From: Gammaproteobacteria bacterium
GTDB taxonomy: Bacteria > Pseudomonadota > Gammaproteobacteria > Pseudomonadales > Azotimanducaceae
Direction: 5' to 3'
DNA: 46,028 bases
Assembly (NCBI GenBank): GCA_026708185.1
Contig: JAPOVK010000026.1
Span: forward strand, 1-46,028
Made by a program: the position numbers and the translations under genes. The notes below the pieces were generated by a model. That model was not told where the DNA came from. It worked only from the letters and a program-made list of their open reading frames with translations, and did not search any database. This document shows positions 2,076-8,025 of the stretch, piece after piece (the first letter of the stretch is position 1; the number at the start of each line of letters is the position of its first letter).

Positions 2076-2522
2076 CTAGAACTCCCAGAGGACCCACTCC
2101 GCAACCAGCGTCTTCGCCTGCTCCAAGTCCCCGAAGCCACGGGTCCTGTCGTACGGCACCAGGTAGTACGGCTTGCCGAGTTTCGGCACCACCTTGATCA
2201 TCCGAAGCTGTCCGTTCTGGCGGTACTCGTAGACCATGCGCTCTTCGCTTGCGATGAGCGTGACATCGGGCCCGCGAAACTCGGGCGGTGGTTCCTCGGT
2301 GACGATCAACGGAACGTGGCGCGTATTCTCCTCCGCTGGCGAAGGGGCCTTGTCGGTCGAGGCGGCTTCCTTCGGGGGCGGGTCGTCGCTGCCTGCGGGC
2401 GGGGTTGGGTTGTCCGGGTTGGATGGAGCGGCGACCAGCGCGGCCGAGGCAAACGCGGCGGCGGAGAGAAGCGGCCAGACGGCCCAGGATGAGGGCGACC
2501 GGAATACGGCGGCGTCTTGCAT
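2076..2522 (-). CDS. DUF2782 family protein, exported
   Basis: This 148-residue protein has a hydrophobic N-terminal segment (about residues 12-33, ending in ALVAAP) that looks like a signal peptide or anchor, then a Pro/Asp/Glu-rich linker (34-66), then a small C-terminal domain with VYEYRQNGQLRMIKVVPKLG and KPYYLVPYD, which I recognise as DUF2782. The function is unknown. In Pseudomonas a protein of this family lies directly beside polA, as here, where the two genes are divergent with 63 bp between their starts. ATG at 2522 is the only start that places the hydrophobic segment at the N terminus. Confidence 0.8.
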   Translation of the reverse strand: MQDAAVFRSPSSWAVWPLLSAAAFASAALVAAPSNPDNPTPPAGSDDPPPKEAASTDKAPSPAEENTRHVPLIVTEEPPPEFRGPDVTLIASEERMVYEYRQNGQLRMIKVVPKLGKPYYLVPYDRTRGFGDLEQAKTLVAEWVLWEF

Positions 2523-2585
2523 GAAACCCGCGCCGCCGGTCACTATGTCCCCCTTGGGCGCATGACCATGAAGGGGGAATCTACC

Positions 2586-5276
2586 ATGGCTGCCGACAAA
2601 CCGTTGTTGCTGGTCGACGGCTCGTCCTACCTGTTCCGAGCATTCCATGCGCTGCCCGATCTGCGCACGCTGGACGGTTTTCCCACAGGTGCGATCCGCG
2701 GGGTCATCGGCATGCTGCGCAAGCTCGCCGCCGACTTCGAGGGCAGCCCCGTCGCCGTGGTCTTCGACGCCAGCGGCCCGACCTTCCGCAACAAGATGTT
2801 CCCCGAGTACAAGGCGAACCGGCCGCGCATGGCGGACGACCTGCGGATGCAGATCCAACCGATCCTCGACATCATCGAGGCCATGGGCATGCCCCTGCTC
2901 CGTGTCCCGGATGTGGAGGCGGACGACGTCATCGGCACGCTGGCCGCCCAGGCTACCCGGACCGCGCGGCGCACCGTGATCTCCACCGGCGACAAGGACA
3001 TGGCGCAACTGGTCTCCGACCACGTCACGTTGGTCAACACGATGACCGAGACGGCTCTCGACCGGGACGGCGTGGTCGAGAAATACGGTGTCGCACCCGA
3101 GCAGATCGTCGACTACCTGGCACTGATGGGCGACGCGATCGACAACATTCCCGGCGTGCCGAAGGTGGGTCCCAAGACGGCGGCCAAGTGGCTCGCCCAG
3201 TTCGGCTCGCTGGACGAGGTCATAGCCCGCGCCAGCGAGGTCAAGGGCAAGATCGGCGACAACCTGCGTGCGACCGTGGACCAGTTGCCGCTGTCGAGGC
3301 AGCTCACGACGATCGACTGCGAAATCAGCCTCGAGGTCGGGATCGACGACCTGGCGATGAAACCCGCCGACGAGGACAAGCTCCGGGGTTACTTCGAGCT
3401 CTACGAGTTCAAGCCGTGGCTCGAAGAGCTTGGCGGCGGCGCGGAGCCTCCCCCGTCCGAGACCGTTGACATCGAAGTGGTCACGGACGGCGACGCGCTG
3501 GCCCGCTGGTTCGACCGCGCCCGCGACGCGGGGTCGTTGACGTTGTCGATCGAGACCTCCGGCGAGCGGTTCATGACCAGTCGCCCGGCCGGCGTGGCGC
3601 TCGGCGTTGCGGCCGGCGAGGCCGCCTACGTGCCAGTCGGCCACGACTACGTGGGTGTGCCGCGGCAACTCGATTGGACGGATTTCCTCGCCGCGGCGAA
3701 GCCTTTGCTCGAGGACCCCGCGATCGCCAAAACCGGCCATGATCTGAAGACCGTGATGAGCATCCTCGCGAGGTACGGCGTGGACCTTGAGGGCGCCGAC
3801 CACGACATCATGCTGGAGTCCTACGTCGTCGACAGCGTCGGTGCCCGCCGCCACCACCTCGAGGACGTCGCGGGCAAGTACCTTGGCGACCCTGGTCCCG
3901 CGTTCGAGGCGATCGCGGGCAAGGGCGCGAAGCGCTTGTCGATGAACGCGATCGACGTCGACGCCGCTGCGGGCTACGCGGCCACGCGGGCCGATCTTGC
4001 AATCCGCCTGCACGCGACGTTGCGCACCAAGCTCGACGCCACCGGCCGGCTCGGTCAGGTCTACGACGACATCGACCGACCGCTGCTCGCCGTGCTTTCG
4101 CGTGTCGAACGCACCGGCACGCTTGTCGACGCCGGCCTGCTTGCGGACCAGAGCCGCGAACTCGCAACGCGCATGGGCGAACTCGAGGAAGCGGCCTACG
4201 CGGCCGCAGGCGAACCGTTCAATCTCGGCTCGCCCAAGCAGTTGCAGGAGATCCTCTACGACAAGCTCGAACTGCCGGCGCTGAAGAAGACCCAGAAAGG
4301 CCAGCGCTCGACCGCCGAGCCCGTGCTCGTCGAATTGGCCGACATGGGCCACGAACTGCCGCAGATCATCCTCGACCACCGCTCGCTGTCGAAGTTGAAA
4401 TCCACCTATACCGACAGCCTGCCGCACGAGATCAACCAGGCGACCGGTCGCATCCACACGTCCTACAACCAGGCGGTGGCCGCGACCGGACGCCTGTCTT
4501 CGGCCGACCCCAACCTGCAGAACATCCCAATCCGCACCGCCGAGGGACGCCGCATCCGGCAGGCGTTCGTGGCGCCGCCGGGGAAGAAGCTAATCGCCGC
4601 CGACTATTCGCAGATCGAGTTGCGAATCATGGCGCACCTTTCGGGCGACGAAGGCCTGCAACGCGCCTTCGCCGCTGGCGAGGACATCCATCGCGCGACC
4701 GCGGCCGAGGTTTTCGGGGCCGAGCTAGGCACCGTTACCGACGACCAGCGACGCAGCGCCAAGGCGGTCAACTTCGGCCTGATCTACGGGATGTCGTCGT
4801 TCGGTCTGGGGCAGCAGCTTGGCGTGACGCGCTTCGTCGCCCAGGGCTACATCGACCGCTACTTCGAGCGTTTCCCAGGCGTGCGCGAGTTCATGGACCG
4901 GGTGCGGGCCCAGGCGCACGCCGACGGGTTCGTGGAAACGGTCTTCGGACGACGCCTCTACCTGCCGGATATCGGCGTACGCAACCACGCCCGGCGTCAG
5001 GGGGCGGAGCGCGCTGCGATCAACGCGCCGATGCAAGGGACGGCCGCCGACATCATCAAGCGCGCCATGCTGGCCGTGGACGATTTCTGTCGGCACGGCG
5101 ACCTTGATGTGGCCATGATCCTGCAGGTCCACGACGAACTGGTGCTCGAGGTGGCGGAGGACGACGTCGCGGAGGTAACCGAGGAGGTTACGAGGCGCAT
5201 GCGCGACGCTGCGGACCTGACCGTCGAGCTCGTGGTGGACGCAGGCGTCGGGGACAACTGGGACGAGGCGCACTGA
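2586..5276 (+). CDS. polA: DNA polymerase I, proofreading site degenerate
   Basis: This 896-residue enzyme fills gaps and removes RNA primers in replication and repair. The 5'-nuclease domain (about 1-290) is intact, with VFDASGPTFRNKMFPEYKANRP and VEADDVIGTLA. The polymerase domain keeps motif A (ADYSQIELR, D673), motif B (RRSAKAVNFGLIYG, K726, F730) and motif C (QVHDELVLEV, D850). The 3'-5' exonuclease domain (about 295-480) keeps its fold-defining strings but not its metal ligands: aligned with E. coli, D355 is Ser321, D424 is Val390 and D501 is Arg468; only E357 remains (Glu323). Proofreading is therefore probably lost, as in Taq and Bst polymerases. The start ATG at 2586 has AGGGGG eight to nine bases upstream. 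Confidence 0.97.
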   Translation: MAADKPLLLVDGSSYLFRAFHALPDLRTLDGFPTGAIRGVIGMLRKLAADFEGSPVAVVFDASGPTFRNKMFPEYKANRPRMADDLRMQIQPILDIIEAMGMPLLRVPDVEADDVIGTLAAQATRTARRTVISTGDKDMAQLVSDHVTLVNTMTETALDRDGVVEKYGVAPEQIVDYLALMGDAIDNIPGVPKVGPKTAAKWLAQFGSLDEVIARASEVKGKIGDNLRATVDQLPLSRQLTTIDCEISLEVGIDDLAMKPADEDKLRGYFELYEFKPWLEELGGGAEPPPSETVDIEVVTDGDALARWFDRARDAGSLTLSIETSGERFMTSRPAGVALGVAAGEAAYVPVGHDYVGVPRQLDWTDFLAAAKPLLEDPAIAKTGHDLKTVMSILARYGVDLEGADHDIMLESYVVDSVGARRHHLEDVAGKYLGDPGPAFEAIAGKGAKRLSMNAIDVDAAAGYAATRADLAIRLHATLRTKLDATGRLGQVYDDIDRPLLAVLSRVERTGTLVDAGLLADQSRELATRMGELEEAAYAAAGEPFNLGSPKQLQEILYDKLELPALKKTQKGQRSTAEPVLVELADMGHELPQIILDHRSLSKLKSTYTDSLPHEINQATGRIHTSYNQAVAATGRLSSADPNLQNIPIRTAEGRRIRQAFVAPPGKKLIAADYSQIELRIMAHLSGDEGLQRAFAAGEDIHRATAAEVFGAELGTVTDDQRRSAKAVNFGLIYGMSSFGLGQQLGVTRFVAQGYIDRYFERFPGVREFMDRVRAQAHADGFVETVFGRRLYLPDIGVRNHARRQGAERAAINAPMQGTAADIIKRAMLAVDDFCRHGDLDVAMILQVHDELVLEVAEDDVAEVTEEVTRRMRDAADLTVELVVDAGVGDNWDEAH

Positions 5277-5304
5277 CCGGCCATGGCCCCGGTGGGGCGG
5301 TCAG
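5273..5304. terminator. Hairpin between convergent polA and sigma-clamp gene
   Basis: CTGACCG (5273-5279) pairs perfectly with CGGTCAG (5298-5304), and the loop contains a further GC-rich palindrome, GGCCATGGCC. It covers both stop codons of the convergent genes. There is no long T run on either side, so it is a possible rather than a clear bidirectional terminator. Confidence 0.45.
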
Positions 5305-6608
5305 GCAACAGCCAGTTGCTCAGCGACCTTCACGCACATGGTCAGAACCCTGTGCTTGCCGTCGCTCATGTCGAGAACGCCGTGCCGGGTCACGCTCAGC
5401 GAGACCTCGAGGCCATCGAGCGCCAGAAGCGCTTTGCGCGGCACGCGGAGGTGGAAGAACTGGTCGGCAAGATCCTTGGCAACTTCCACGTGGCGCAACT
5501 CGACCGGGCTCGGCGCCGCTTCGCGAGCCCGCCTGCCATCGGCTTCGTAGACGAGGGCGCTCGCGAGGAGAGTTCCGCCCGGTAGCAAGGACAGGCGAAC
5601 ATGGTCAGCCCGGGTACGGACGGATCGTGTGGCGGCGCGAGTTAAAGCGTCGGTTGCCGACGTCAAGTCGCTGGCCCGTACCCGCACGCGCATCAGGACG
5701 TCCCTGTCCCTTGGCAGGACTTTCCGGTAGTCCGGGAATCGCCACGGACTGATCCCCCAAGCAAGTTCTTCGGCTGCCAACGCAAGTCGGACCTCGTCCA
5801 GGTGGACCGTCAGGTCCCCGCCGCCTGTCAACGCTTCTGCGCCGTTCGGGTGCACCAACACGTCGGCGTCAAGTGCCCTGAGCGCCGCTACGCGGCGGAC
5901 CAGCAGACGCGCGCCATCGGTCGCCACCGCGTAGCCCCGTCGGTCCAGCAGGACGCCATGAATCCCAGGTCGGGAGTCTTCGCGGTTGGGGGAGAAGAGT
6001 TCCGCCACGCCCAGCGATCTGACATCGGCCGGGCTGAGTCGCGCGGGCGTGCTGTGGCTCATGTTGTCCATTTCCTCCTTCAGTTGTTTGCGGGCGCGGT
6101 GCAGACGGCTCTTGACGGCCGATGTGGAGACTCGCAACCGAGCGCCGATTTCCCGGTAAGACTCGCCATGGACGTAGCGCGCGCGGATCAAGTCCCGTTG
6201 GTTTGGCGGAAGCCGGGCCACGGCCGCTCGCACCCTCGAGTTTCGAGGCGGGCTGTCGTCGGCAAAAGGTCCGTCGCCTTTCACCCCAGCCCATTCGGGC
6301 ACGCGCGACTGCAGGGCGAGATGCAACTGTCGCCATCGGATCTCTCCGCGCGTTTGCATCCGCACCTCGTTCCTGGCGATCACCGCGACCCATGCATCGA
6401 AGGCATGGGCATCGGTCAATGACGCCAACGATTCGATCACCCGCACCACCGTGTTCTGCACGGCATCGTCGATTTCCGTGCCTCCTTGGGCCAGGGCCAC
6501 GCGGCGGGCCAGCGCCGAGGCTCGGCCAACGAGCCGTTGCCGGGCGTGCTCGCATCCCTCGAGGGCATCCGCGACCAGTGTGGGCACGTCTTCTTTTGCA
6601 GACTTCAC
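5301..6608 (-). CDS. ECF-type sigma factor fused to a two-domain beta-clamp-like (DnaN-like) module
   Basis: One uninterrupted frame of 435 residues (from GTG 6608; an upstream TTG at 6656 would add 16 and overlap engB). Residues 10-180 are an ECF sigma factor: region 2 (EIDDAVQNTVVRVIESL, FDAWVAVIARNEVRM) and region 4 with its helix-turn-helix (VARLPPNQRDLIRARYVHG, YREIGARLRVSTSAVKSRL). Residues about 190-430 match domains 2 and 3 of the DNA polymerase III beta clamp: RPGIHGVLLD, AVATDGARLLV, RFPDYRKVLP, DHVRLSLLPGGTLLAS, and the closing LTMCVKV, in the same order as E. coli DnaN (GMLF, TVATDGHRLAV, RFPDYRRVLP, GVRLYV, VVMPMRL). Clamp domain 1 is missing. No anti-sigma gene is adjacent. Sits in the conserved polA-engB interval. 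Function is unknown; inferred role is clamp-linked promoter recognition. Confidence 0.82.
   Translation of the reverse strand: MKSAKEDVPTLVADALEGCEHARQRLVGRASALARRVALAQGGTEIDDAVQNTVVRVIESLASLTDAHAFDAWVAVIARNEVRMQTRGEIRWRQLHLALQSRVPEWAGVKGDGPFADDSPPRNSRVRAAVARLPPNQRDLIRARYVHGESYREIGARLRVSTSAVKSRLHRARKQLKEEMDNMSHSTPARLSPADVRSLGVAELFSPNREDSRPGIHGVLLDRRGYAVATDGARLLVRRVAALRALDADVLVHPNGAEALTGGGDLTVHLDEVRLALAAEELAWGISPWRFPDYRKVLPRDRDVLMRVRVRASDLTSATDALTRAATRSVRTRADHVRLSLLPGGTLLASALVYEADGRRAREAAPSPVELRHVEVAKDLADQFFHLRVPRKALLALDGLEVSLSVTRHGVLDMSDGKHRVLTMCVKVAEQLAVA
6060..6080 (-). promoter_or_regulatory. Possible internal ribosome site for a clamp-only product
   Basis: On the minus strand AAGGAGG (6080-6074) lies two bases before ATG 6071 and eleven before ATG 6062, exactly at the boundary between the sigma and clamp modules. 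Initiation at 6062 would give a clamp-like protein of about 253 residues on its own. The string also encodes Lys-Glu-Glu within the sigma C terminus, so it may be chance. Confidence 0.35.
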
Positions 6609-6631: not shown

Positions 6632-7273
6632 TCAGGGTTGCGCTGTCGACAGCCAACTGCGTACCAGGTCCGTAGCATCTGCGGCGCCGAGCCCGGTTTG
6701 CGCGGAGAACAGCGCGGGGTGGCAGTTCTCGCCCAGCTGCCGTTGCACGTTGCGGAGGGCTTGCGCGCGCGCACCGCGCTTGAGCTTGTCCGCCTTGTTG
6801 AGCAACGCCAGCATCGGCAGGCCGCGCGTCGCGGCCCAGTCGATCATGTGCACATCGAACGCCTGCAACGGCCGCCGGGCGTCCATGACCAGGACGATGC
6901 CGACGAGGTTCGTGCGCCGGCTGAGGTAGTCGTCGATGGCCCGTCCCCAGGCGTCGCGACGTGCCTTGGGGGCCTTGGCGTAGCCGTAGCCGGGCAGGTC
7001 GACCAGTCTGCCCCCGTCGGCGACGCTGAAGAAGTTGATCAACTGCGTCCGGCCCGGAGTTTTGCTCACCCGAGCCAGCGAGCGGCTACCCGTCAAAGCG
7101 TTGAGTGTGCTGGACTTTCCGGCGTTGGAACGGCCGACGAAACAGACTTCCGGGACATCGTCCACTGGACAGCGCTGGAGGCGGTCGGCGCTCGTGAGAA
7201 AGGAGCTGGTCAGGGGCACTGCCGGCCGGAAATCCGAGTCGGTCACGATGCTATACTCCGCGCGCTTCGGCAT
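6632..7273 (-). CDS. engB: Ribosome biogenesis GTP-binding protein EngB (YihA/YsxC)
   Basis: EngB is a GTPase needed for assembly of the large ribosomal subunit. The 213-residue product has the standard length and G motifs: GRSNAGKSS (G1, about residues 47-55), the switch KTPGRTQLINFF, DLPGYGYAK (G3), NKAD (G4, 160-163) and SAQ (G5, about 190). Its position beside polA is conserved in Gammaproteobacteria, although here the sigma-clamp gene sits between them. The ATG start lies at the centre of a 20-bp palindrome (separate entry). The sigma-clamp gene begins 23 bases downstream and may be co-transcribed. Confidence 0.96.
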   Translation of the reverse strand: MPKRAEYSIVTDSDFRPAVPLTSSFLTSADRLQRCPVDDVPEVCFVGRSNAGKSSTLNALTGSRSLARVSKTPGRTQLINFFSVADGGRLVDLPGYGYAKAPKARRDAWGRAIDDYLSRRTNLVGIVLVMDARRPLQAFDVHMIDWAATRGLPMLALLNKADKLKRGARAQALRNVQRQLGENCHPALFSAQTGLGAADATDLVRSWLSTAQP

Positions 7274-7283
7274 ATGCCGAAGC
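7264..7283. promoter_or_regulatory. Perfect 20-bp palindrome centred on the engB start codon
   Basis: GCTTCGGCATATGCCGAAGC is identical to its reverse complement, and the engB ATG (7273-7271) is at its centre. In RNA it would pair the start codon into a stem; in DNA it could bind a dimeric regulator. Confidence 0.6.
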
Positions 7284-7291
7284 CCCAAGTG

Positions 7292-7312
7292 CGCGTCGGG
7301 AATACCGACGCG
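7292..7312. promoter_or_regulatory. 8-bp inverted repeat in the engB / cytochrome c4 intergenic region
   Basis: CGCGTCGG (7292-7299) and CCGACGCG (7305-7312) are perfect inverse copies around a GAATA loop, nine bases from the palindrome on the engB start. It lies in the 119-bp divergent promoter region and could be an operator or a leader hairpin of the engB transcript. Confidence 0.45.
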
Positions 7313-7392
7313 GCTGCCGCCGAAAGCGCGAGATGGGTCGGGCACGTCGGGGCAAAAGGATTCTAGCGGACAACAGGGGAAGCAAGAGCACC

Positions 7393-8025
7393 GTGGGAAC
7401 GCGAACCGCCATCGCCATCGTCGCGCTGTGCTTAGGGCTAGGCGTTGCGGCATCGGAAGAAGCGATCGACGAGGCTGGCCCCGACGCCGAGGCGGGACGC
7501 GTCCTTTCCGCACCCTGCGTGGCCTGCCACGGCGAGGACGGCAACAGCGCCATCCCGATCAACCCGAGCTTGGCCGGGCAGAACTTCCGCTACTTGAACC
7601 GCCAGATGCTGCTGATGCGTGACGGCGGCCGCGCCGCGCCGCTTATGGCGGGCCAGCTCGACCGGTTCTCGGACGAAGAGATCGCCGACATGGCCGCGTT
7701 CTACGCGAGTCAGACCGCCGAGGTGCGGGCCGCCCCACCGGAGGCTGCGGGTCTTGGCCAGCGCATCTACCGTGGCGGACTGCTGCACAAGCAGGTTGCG
7801 GCGTGCACCGCCTGCCACGCGCCGAACGGTAGCGGCAATGCACCGGCCGGCTTTCCGCGCTTGTCAGGTCAGCACGTCGACTACGTTGTGCCGCAACTCA
7901 AGGCGTACCGCGAAGGCCAACGGACAACGGACGAAGAGTACGGCGGTATGATGCGGCAGACGGTGGCCAACTTGACGGACGGTGAAATCGAAGCTGTCGC
8001 GAAGTACCTGGTTGGCCTGCACTAG
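7393..8025 (+). CDS. Dihaem cytochrome c4
   Basis: A periplasmic electron carrier of 210 residues. The N terminus (AIAIVALCLGLGVAAS) is a signal peptide. Two haem-binding motifs, PCVACHGEDG (C42, C45, H46) and ACTACHAPNG (C138, C141, H142), fall in two similar domains, and each half ends with a helix carrying a likely methionine ligand (PLMAGQLDRFSDEEIADMAAFYA; MMRQTVANLTDGEIEAVAKYL). This is the cytochrome c4 plan; c4 donates electrons to terminal oxidases. GTG 7393 was chosen because it puts the signal peptide at the N terminus. engB is divergent, and dsbA follows after 34 bp, as in Pseudomonas. Confidence 0.93.
   Translation: MGTRTAIAIVALCLGLGVAASEEAIDEAGPDAEAGRVLSAPCVACHGEDGNSAIPINPSLAGQNFRYLNRQMLLMRDGGRAAPLMAGQLDRFSDEEIADMAAFYASQTAEVRAAPPEAAGLGQRIYRGGLLHKQVAACTACHAPNGSGNAPAGFPRLSGQHVDYVVPQLKAYREGQRTTDEEYGGMMRQTVANLTDGEIEAVAKYLVGLH

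Follow-up and report, generated by a model that had tools for sequence, protein, structure and literature searches.

Replication and repair proteins dock on the bacterial sliding clamp DnaN (beta clamp) through short clamp-binding peptides, which are bound by its pocket. Clamps and transcription meet in phage T4, where, as described in passages of two sources, the clamp gp45 activates late transcription via peptides on gp55 and gp33 and is itself a separate trimeric ring (PMC7892883, PMC9690074), the sigma factor gp55 carrying a clamp-binding peptide (PMC7892883). Among ECF sigma factors, passages of a review describe C-terminal extensions in at least 26 groups and the SnoaL tail of ECF41 as a precedent for a built-in regulator, and the word 'clamp' occurs nowhere in its main text (PMC8999054). 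A published sigma-clamp fusion was not found in our literature search either, the 2021 ECF reclassification lying outside it; a preliminary description of the DNA studied here had likewise known of no family with this architecture, and within that scope the claim stands.

Here we describe such a fusion in a 46,028-nucleotide stretch of DNA (the window). The gene encodes, in one uninterrupted frame on the minus strand, an ECF sigma factor followed by ~245 residues related to domains 2 and 3 of DnaN, with DnaN domain 1 absent (Table 1). The preliminary description had reported one open frame free of stops and frame changes, with sigma regions 2 and 4 followed by DnaN domains 2 and 3; it was right on the frame and on the architecture, domain 3 being weak in the window copy. 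Frame length alone is no evidence of coding here, since an antisense frame of 793 residues overlaps polA. The fusion frame is not a chance one, judged by the retention of both halves in homologues and a dN/dS of 0.46 over the frame, and from these comparisons the fusion is confirmed as real, with an architecture that is certain for practical purposes.

Table 1. Features of the fusion locus and its flanking genes in the window
Feature	Positions	Strand	Basis and remarks
ECF sigma–two-domain clamp fusion gene	5301..6608	-	435 codons; GTG start at 6608, stop at 5301-5303
Sigma region 2, residues 28-87	6348..6527	-	PF04542 (Sigma70_r2), 29.8 bits, cut-off 24
Sigma region 4, residues 125-176	6081..6236	-	PF08281 (Sigma70_r4_2), 59.6 bits, cut-off 25.7
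DnaN domain-2-like module, ~residues 190-307	5688..6041	-	phmmer, module profile, hhalign, G015 homologue over PF02767
DnaN domain-3-like module, ~residue 308 to end	5304..5687	-	Alignments, strand/helix order; divergent in the window copy, low pLDDT
TDGARL, pocket, equivalent to E. coli beta 172-177	5904..5921	-	Alignment; pocket positions assumed
FPDYRKVLP, equivalent to E. coli beta 241-249 (pocket P242, V247)	5712..5738	-	Alignment
C-terminal TMC, equivalent to E. coli 361-363	5334..5342	-	Alignment; IMP in G015, TMP in G019
In-frame ATG at the sigma/clamp junction, residue 183	6060..6062	-	Possible internal start
polA (DNA polymerase I), convergent neighbour	2517..5276	+	PF00476, 1.8e-158
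GTPase, presumably engB/YihA-type, co-directional	6632..7513	-	PF01926; 23 nt from engB stop to fusion start

Both sigma-70 regions of an ECF factor, 2 and 4, are present above their Pfam cut-offs, and TIGR02937 (sigma70-ECF) matches residues 21–180 at 2.6e-21, over its cut-off; by these profiles the sigma half is intact. An extension follows region 4 in all four complete genes. The protein resembles extension-type ECF factors in its intact regions 2 and 4, its globular C-terminal extension and its surroundings, with no anti-sigma factor recognised among 13 neighbouring proteins scanned with Pfam (polA, engB, cytochrome c, dsbA, DUF6036, DUF234 ATPase, DUF6817, CoA transferase, phosphotriesterase, Rieske, Trp/Tyr-tRNA synthetase, CARDB and MFS). 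It differs from them in that its extension is a DnaN-derived two-domain module. Other ECF sigma genes of the lineage carry different large tails: one (L004 1324–3174, contig 61 of G000) has a tail that is weakly acetyltransferase-like, under the cut-off, and another (L033 67–2103, G114) combines ankyrin repeats with a nucleotide-binding match of ATP-synthase type. Sigma factors with exchanged sensor tails may thus be common in this lineage.

The clamp half of the window copy has no Pfam match of any kind even at E ≤ 10, and the homologous fusions of two further assemblies, G007 and G019, match no Pfam clamp family at E ≤ 1. By phmmer, the window copy matches PDB chains 1jqj, 1mmi and 3pwe, which we take to be E. 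coli DnaN, at ~4e-4 to 6e-4, with residues 181–316 aligned to DnaN 120–263. The 'DNA polymerase processivity factor' family PHROG 947 matches the window copy at 2.2e-5, G007 at 1.4e-6 and G019 at 1.5e-8. A profile of four homologous modules reaches 3pwe at 6.8e-15, and its profile–profile comparison with DnaN in hhalign gives 98.1% and 1.1e-13, for domain 2 only. The module of a third homologue, G015, matches TIGR00663 (DnaN) at ~4e-18 (4.2e-18), with the best stretch at positions 118–276 of 367 and a score of 65.5 bits, below the equivalog cut-off of 137.65; it is also the copy through which the central-domain profile of DnaN is reached, barely passing the PF02767 cut-off of 27 with 27.5 and 30.7 bits in two scans. 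In profile searches with each half, a check proposed in the preliminary description, the sigma half is recognised over Pfam and TIGR02937 cut-offs and the clamp half through PHROG 947 and the TIGR00663 and PF02767 matches of G015. It is not a three-domain DnaN, as the best matches start at DnaN 118–120 and the sigma part stands in the place of domain 1. The window-copy matches (phmmer, PHROG 947) and the four-module profile match are all confined to domain 2. For domain 3, sequence similarity in the window copy is weak, and support comes from the homologues, the strand and helix order of the model and the length of the Foldseek alignments.

An AlphaFold2 model of the window protein, built from four fusion rows and no DnaN rows, has a mean pLDDT of 57.9, with blocks of 71–88 for residues 11–80, blocks of 57–80 for domain 2 and values under 50 for residues 321–435 in clamp domain 3. 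A second model, of G015, was poor (mean pLDDT 47.1). Alignments that included 20 viral DnaN rows were kept out of the folding, and both models therefore derive from fusion rows alone. When the window model was compared with the PDB using Foldseek, ECF sigma factors and 20 DnaN structures were among the best 50 rows shown, including 7rzm at E 8.7e-5 over 268 alignment columns, which is more than one domain; matches in a viral structure library were to sigma factors and clamps too. In residues 306–424, the predicted order is strand, helix and three strands, twice over, which we take to be the order of a clamp domain. TM-scores are low (0.24–0.27, normalised by query).

The fusion is uninterrupted in four separate assemblies, namely that of the window, G007 (80% identical to the window fusion), and G015 and G019 (32 and 37%). 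Recovery of the same fusion in other genomes had been proposed as a check, with a stop between the halves as the sign of an assembly error; no such stop was seen in G007, G015 or G019. An assembly or annotation artefact joining two genes has next to no probability left. Three named carriers are metagenome-assembled genomes (MAGs), which would suit it, but sequence is conserved on both sides of the junction in the four assemblies, one fusion lies on a 4.36-Mb contig and the synteny with polA and engB recurs in G007 and G003, and we regard this reading as already refuted by the independent assemblies.

We searched 58 relatives, then the genus (5/16 genomes) and then the family (206 genomes). The family total is five fusions, one of them (G003) cut by 100 N, which stand for an assembly gap or withheld sequence, and one remnant, a patchy distribution. 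The remnant (G010, L021 8892–9566) is frameshifted and internally deleted and lies between polA and engB, so that at least one species is in the course of losing the gene. Among 23 family matches at 1e-10, 17 were set aside as DnaN from frame lengths of 366–426 residues (two of these, G108 (L155) and G026 (L015), were read). The sixth match of another search of the family, in G114, was dropped as it covers the sigma part only, in the ECF gene with ankyrin repeats. In the groups searched, the fusion is seen in one family only. At 1e-20, a threshold that would miss remnants like that of G010 (1.2e-14), only the window was found in 390 genomes of the order and 398 of the phylum. In 369 genomes of the class at 1e-12, the matches besides the window came from 38 genomes, 37 with DnaN-sized frames of 367–403 residues and one with a 537-residue frame read as DnaN; the candidates L137, L140 and L144 proved on reading to be ordinary DnaN. 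The order, class and phylum samples overlap, and in searches of such large groups scoring was limited to a few top candidates from each genome.

Scans of the genomes of 84,980 species used a few short peptide patterns and are therefore of limited sensitivity. The single-protein pattern gave 92 matches and no relative, and a four-row alignment gave eight loci, of which three are the G019, G015 and G007 fusions, all in MAGs (KW1-S15_96, an uncultured Pseudomonadales bacterium and COS4_bin_44), and five are ECF sigma genes without a clamp part in any of the frames, all of which were read. No fusion turned up in viral scans, whether with the fusion rows or with the module of G015, and a tblastn search of phages with the window protein gave 13 records, all within residues 44–209 (the sigma part). 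Plasmids searched with the G015 module gave ten records, of which one was read and is described below.

The five fusions cluster together both in a tree of 21 clamp rows and in one of 16 sigma rows, with support of 94/75 for the clamp and 81/85 for the sigma rows, and recovery in 92% and 82% of bootstrap trees, respectively. With the moderate support, long branches and deviating composition of the window row, this grouping is compatible with a single fusion event. The module does not group with the cell's own DnaN, a separate copy of which was found in five of the six carriers and not in G003; a phage clamp of 196 residues groups next to the fusions on a very long branch. Between the window and G007, dN/dS is 0.46 (bootstrap 0.32–0.63) and similar in both halves, against 0.07–0.18 for five neighbouring genes, which points to a protein under weak selection that evolves fast, like an accessory gene. 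We consider it improbable that the fusion is a dispensable, horizontally acquired gene in decay, with a functionless clamp part possibly from a phage-type short clamp. The patchy distribution, the broken G010 copy, the dN/dS of 0.46 and the place of the phage clamp in the tree would fit this account, whereas a dN/dS below 1, also for the clamp half alone (bootstrap 0.29–0.66), and a frame kept in homologues only 32–37% identical speak against it.

To compare individual residues, we aligned the four fusions with six DnaN as reference, numbering by E. coli beta and using the positions that we take to form its pocket (12 positions), dimer interface and DNA contacts. Across the four fusions, identity to E. 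coli is 69% at the pocket positions, where all columns together give 20%. On these assumed positions, the pocket also exceeds columns equally conserved in the six DnaN (75% vs 31%, p 1.5e-4), within domain 2 alone as well (82% vs 41%, p 0.005), and one of 240 circular shifts reaches the conservation of the pocket. T172, G174, R176, L177, P242 and M362 are kept in all four fusions. H175 and P363 are kept in G015 and G019 only, the window and G007 having A and C at these positions, respectively, and pocket identity is 54% for the latter pair vs 83% for the former.

The other two surfaces of the clamp fare differently. Again on assumed positions, 5 of 48 dimer-interface cells are kept in the fusions, against 55 of 72 in the six DnaN (low-tail p 0.016), and 7 of 40 DNA-contact cells against 42 of 60. 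At the DNA-contact positions 197, 198, 205 and 235, each of the four fusions has a substitution or a gap, and the interface helix of domain 3 is followed by an insertion, longest in G015 and G019. At these positions, the dimer interface and DNA contacts characteristic of DnaN are mostly gone from the module. What it shares with DnaN is the sequence of domain 2, the motifs TDG.RL and FPDYR..LP, some of the MP motif at the C-terminus and the predicted strand and helix order; what sets it apart is the sigma part in place of domain 1 and the loss of most interface and DNA-contact positions. With much of the pocket kept and most of the ring interface and DNA path lost, the likeliest role for the module is that of a peptide reader or regulatory domain, and it is probably not a ring.

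It is very unlikely that the module forms or joins a sliding ring, as a PCNA-like trimer or a mixed ring with cellular DnaN, and so tethers the sigma factor to DNA, as gp45 does for gp55 in T4. Three chains with two clamp domains each would supply six ring domains, E. coli beta* (domains 2–3) has been reported as a clamp, and a few DNA contacts persist (R152 in three of the four fusions, R240 and R282 in the window and G007), but these points are set against the losses just described. Of the three mechanisms that the preliminary description had put forward, joining a clamp ring is thus disfavoured by the missing domain 1 and the loss of most interface and DNA-contact residues at the assumed positions, while the retained pocket residues favour the other two, binding of clamp partners or a sensor role for the clamp fold.

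Our preferred reading, held tentatively and at slightly less than even confidence, is that of a cytoplasmic ECF sigma factor with a DnaN-derived C-terminal regulatory extension acting as a clamp-derived peptide reader. The module would have lost ring formation and DNA tracking and kept much of the DnaN pocket, which would bind peptides of clamp partners. Occupancy of the pocket would change how available sigma regions 2 and 4 are or, alternatively, RNA polymerase holoenzyme would be tethered near clamp partners, and replication or repair proteins would thereby influence the transcription of a small regulon. The module would take the place of an anti-sigma factor, a role also proposed for the C-terminal extensions of other ECF groups. 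A more specific proposal, possible though rather more doubtful, is that the fusion sigma factor mimics the clamp docking face, so that free or mobilised clamp partners switch or recruit RNA polymerase. The altered pocket of the window and G007 copies, the dN/dS of 0.46, the decayed G010 copy and the low pLDDT of clamp domain 3 weigh against the peptide-reader interpretation, as does the chance that TDG.RL and FPDYR are folding motifs.

Its main rival, which we judge somewhat unlikely, is that the module is a purely structural built-in regulator, as the SnoaL tail of ECF41 is, contacting the sigma regions or a small ligand. TDG.RL and FPDYR could then be kept for folding, and most pocket motifs do lie in domain 2, the better-kept domain (41% of conserved columns vs 24% in domain 3). 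The substitutions in the window pocket, the other ECF genes of the lineage with different large tails and the ECF41 precedent itself (in the passages cited of PMC8999054) point the same way. Against it, the pocket exceeds equally conserved columns of domain 2, as given above, and G015 and G019 keep H175, M362 and P363.

The fusion places a docking fold of replication proteins within a factor for transcription initiation. With a working pocket, it would connect replication or repair status directly to a set of promoters in a bacterium, and would indicate that a clamp can be stripped to a peptide-reading domain. The T4 parallel drawn in the preliminary description holds in that a sigma-like factor is linked to a sliding clamp, and is inverted in its arrangement: the T4 sigma factor bears the peptide and the clamp is separate, whereas here the pocket and the sigma factor are in one chain. 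By alignment, the C-terminus of G015 and G019 corresponds to that of DnaN and not to a C-terminal clamp-binding peptide of the gp55 type. Were the docking-face proposal true, this would be transcription–replication coupling in one chain, built the opposite way round from T4.

The plasmid record that was read, from Streptomyces sp. NBC_01435 (L053 2413–3696), encodes a MerR regulator fused to DnaN domains 2–3, and our literature search found no paper on such a fusion. PF02767 matches it with 66 bits, over the cut-off, PF02768 and PF00712 are under theirs, and TIGR00663 matches at 2.6e-29 over positions 124–367. As in the sigma fusion, a transcription regulator is followed by DnaN domains 2–3; it differs in having MerR instead of sigma, in its phylum and in being closer to DnaN by profile score, and it falls on the DnaN side of the tree on a long branch. 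It is apparently a second, independent case, which suggests more than one origin for regulator–clamp coupling. The short clamp-like proteins of phages (PHROG 3007) share the DnaN domain-2 similarity and, in L043, the absence of domain 1, but they stand alone at ~190 residues, shorter than the fusion and without a sigma part. The name 'RusA-like Holliday junction resolvase', given to PHROG 3007 and to several phage genes, is probably wrong, since these resemble short DnaN-type clamps; L043 7872–8567 matches DnaN chains at 5e-5 with no RusA among the matches listed.

The preliminary description had asked whether the fusion always sits beside polA. It does in four of the six carriers (the window, G007, G003 and G010), and does not in G015, nor on the 3' side of the G019 fusion (on a 4.1-kb contig). 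In G003 and G010, a DUF234-type ATPase gene, recognised by scan in the former and by eye in the latter, lies between the fusion and engB. Since G015 and G019 have other neighbours, proximity to polA is a feature of one sub-lineage. A CoA-transferase gene near both the G015 and G019 copies was set aside as probably a member of a common family.

The junction ATG is present in all five genes read (the window, G007, G003, G015 and G019), with a Shine-Dalgarno-like stretch before it that is the strongest among in-frame start codons in four of the five. In a synonymous-codon control, this stretch does not go beyond amino-acid constraint in the five genes (P 0.155, 0.05, 0.51, 0.35 and 0.10), so the ATG is retained as a possible internal start.

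A link of the fusion to the SOS response was rejected, as LexA-type boxes (CTGT-N8-ACAG) are below expectation in the window (six one-mismatch matches vs 10.8 expected, one of them within the fusion coding sequence at 6253–6268) and the fusion loci contain no exact match. About 140–160 nt upstream of the start of the G015 fusion, L036 7831–7855 reads GGAACCTTT and then GTCGAT, which resembles an ECF-type promoter by eye, with a spacing presumably shorter than is usual for ECF promoters. The cellular DnaN of G000 (L046, contig 53) has the unusual pocket letters ASDGHRM and YPDVDRLIP, where the fusion keeps TDG.RL and FPDYR.
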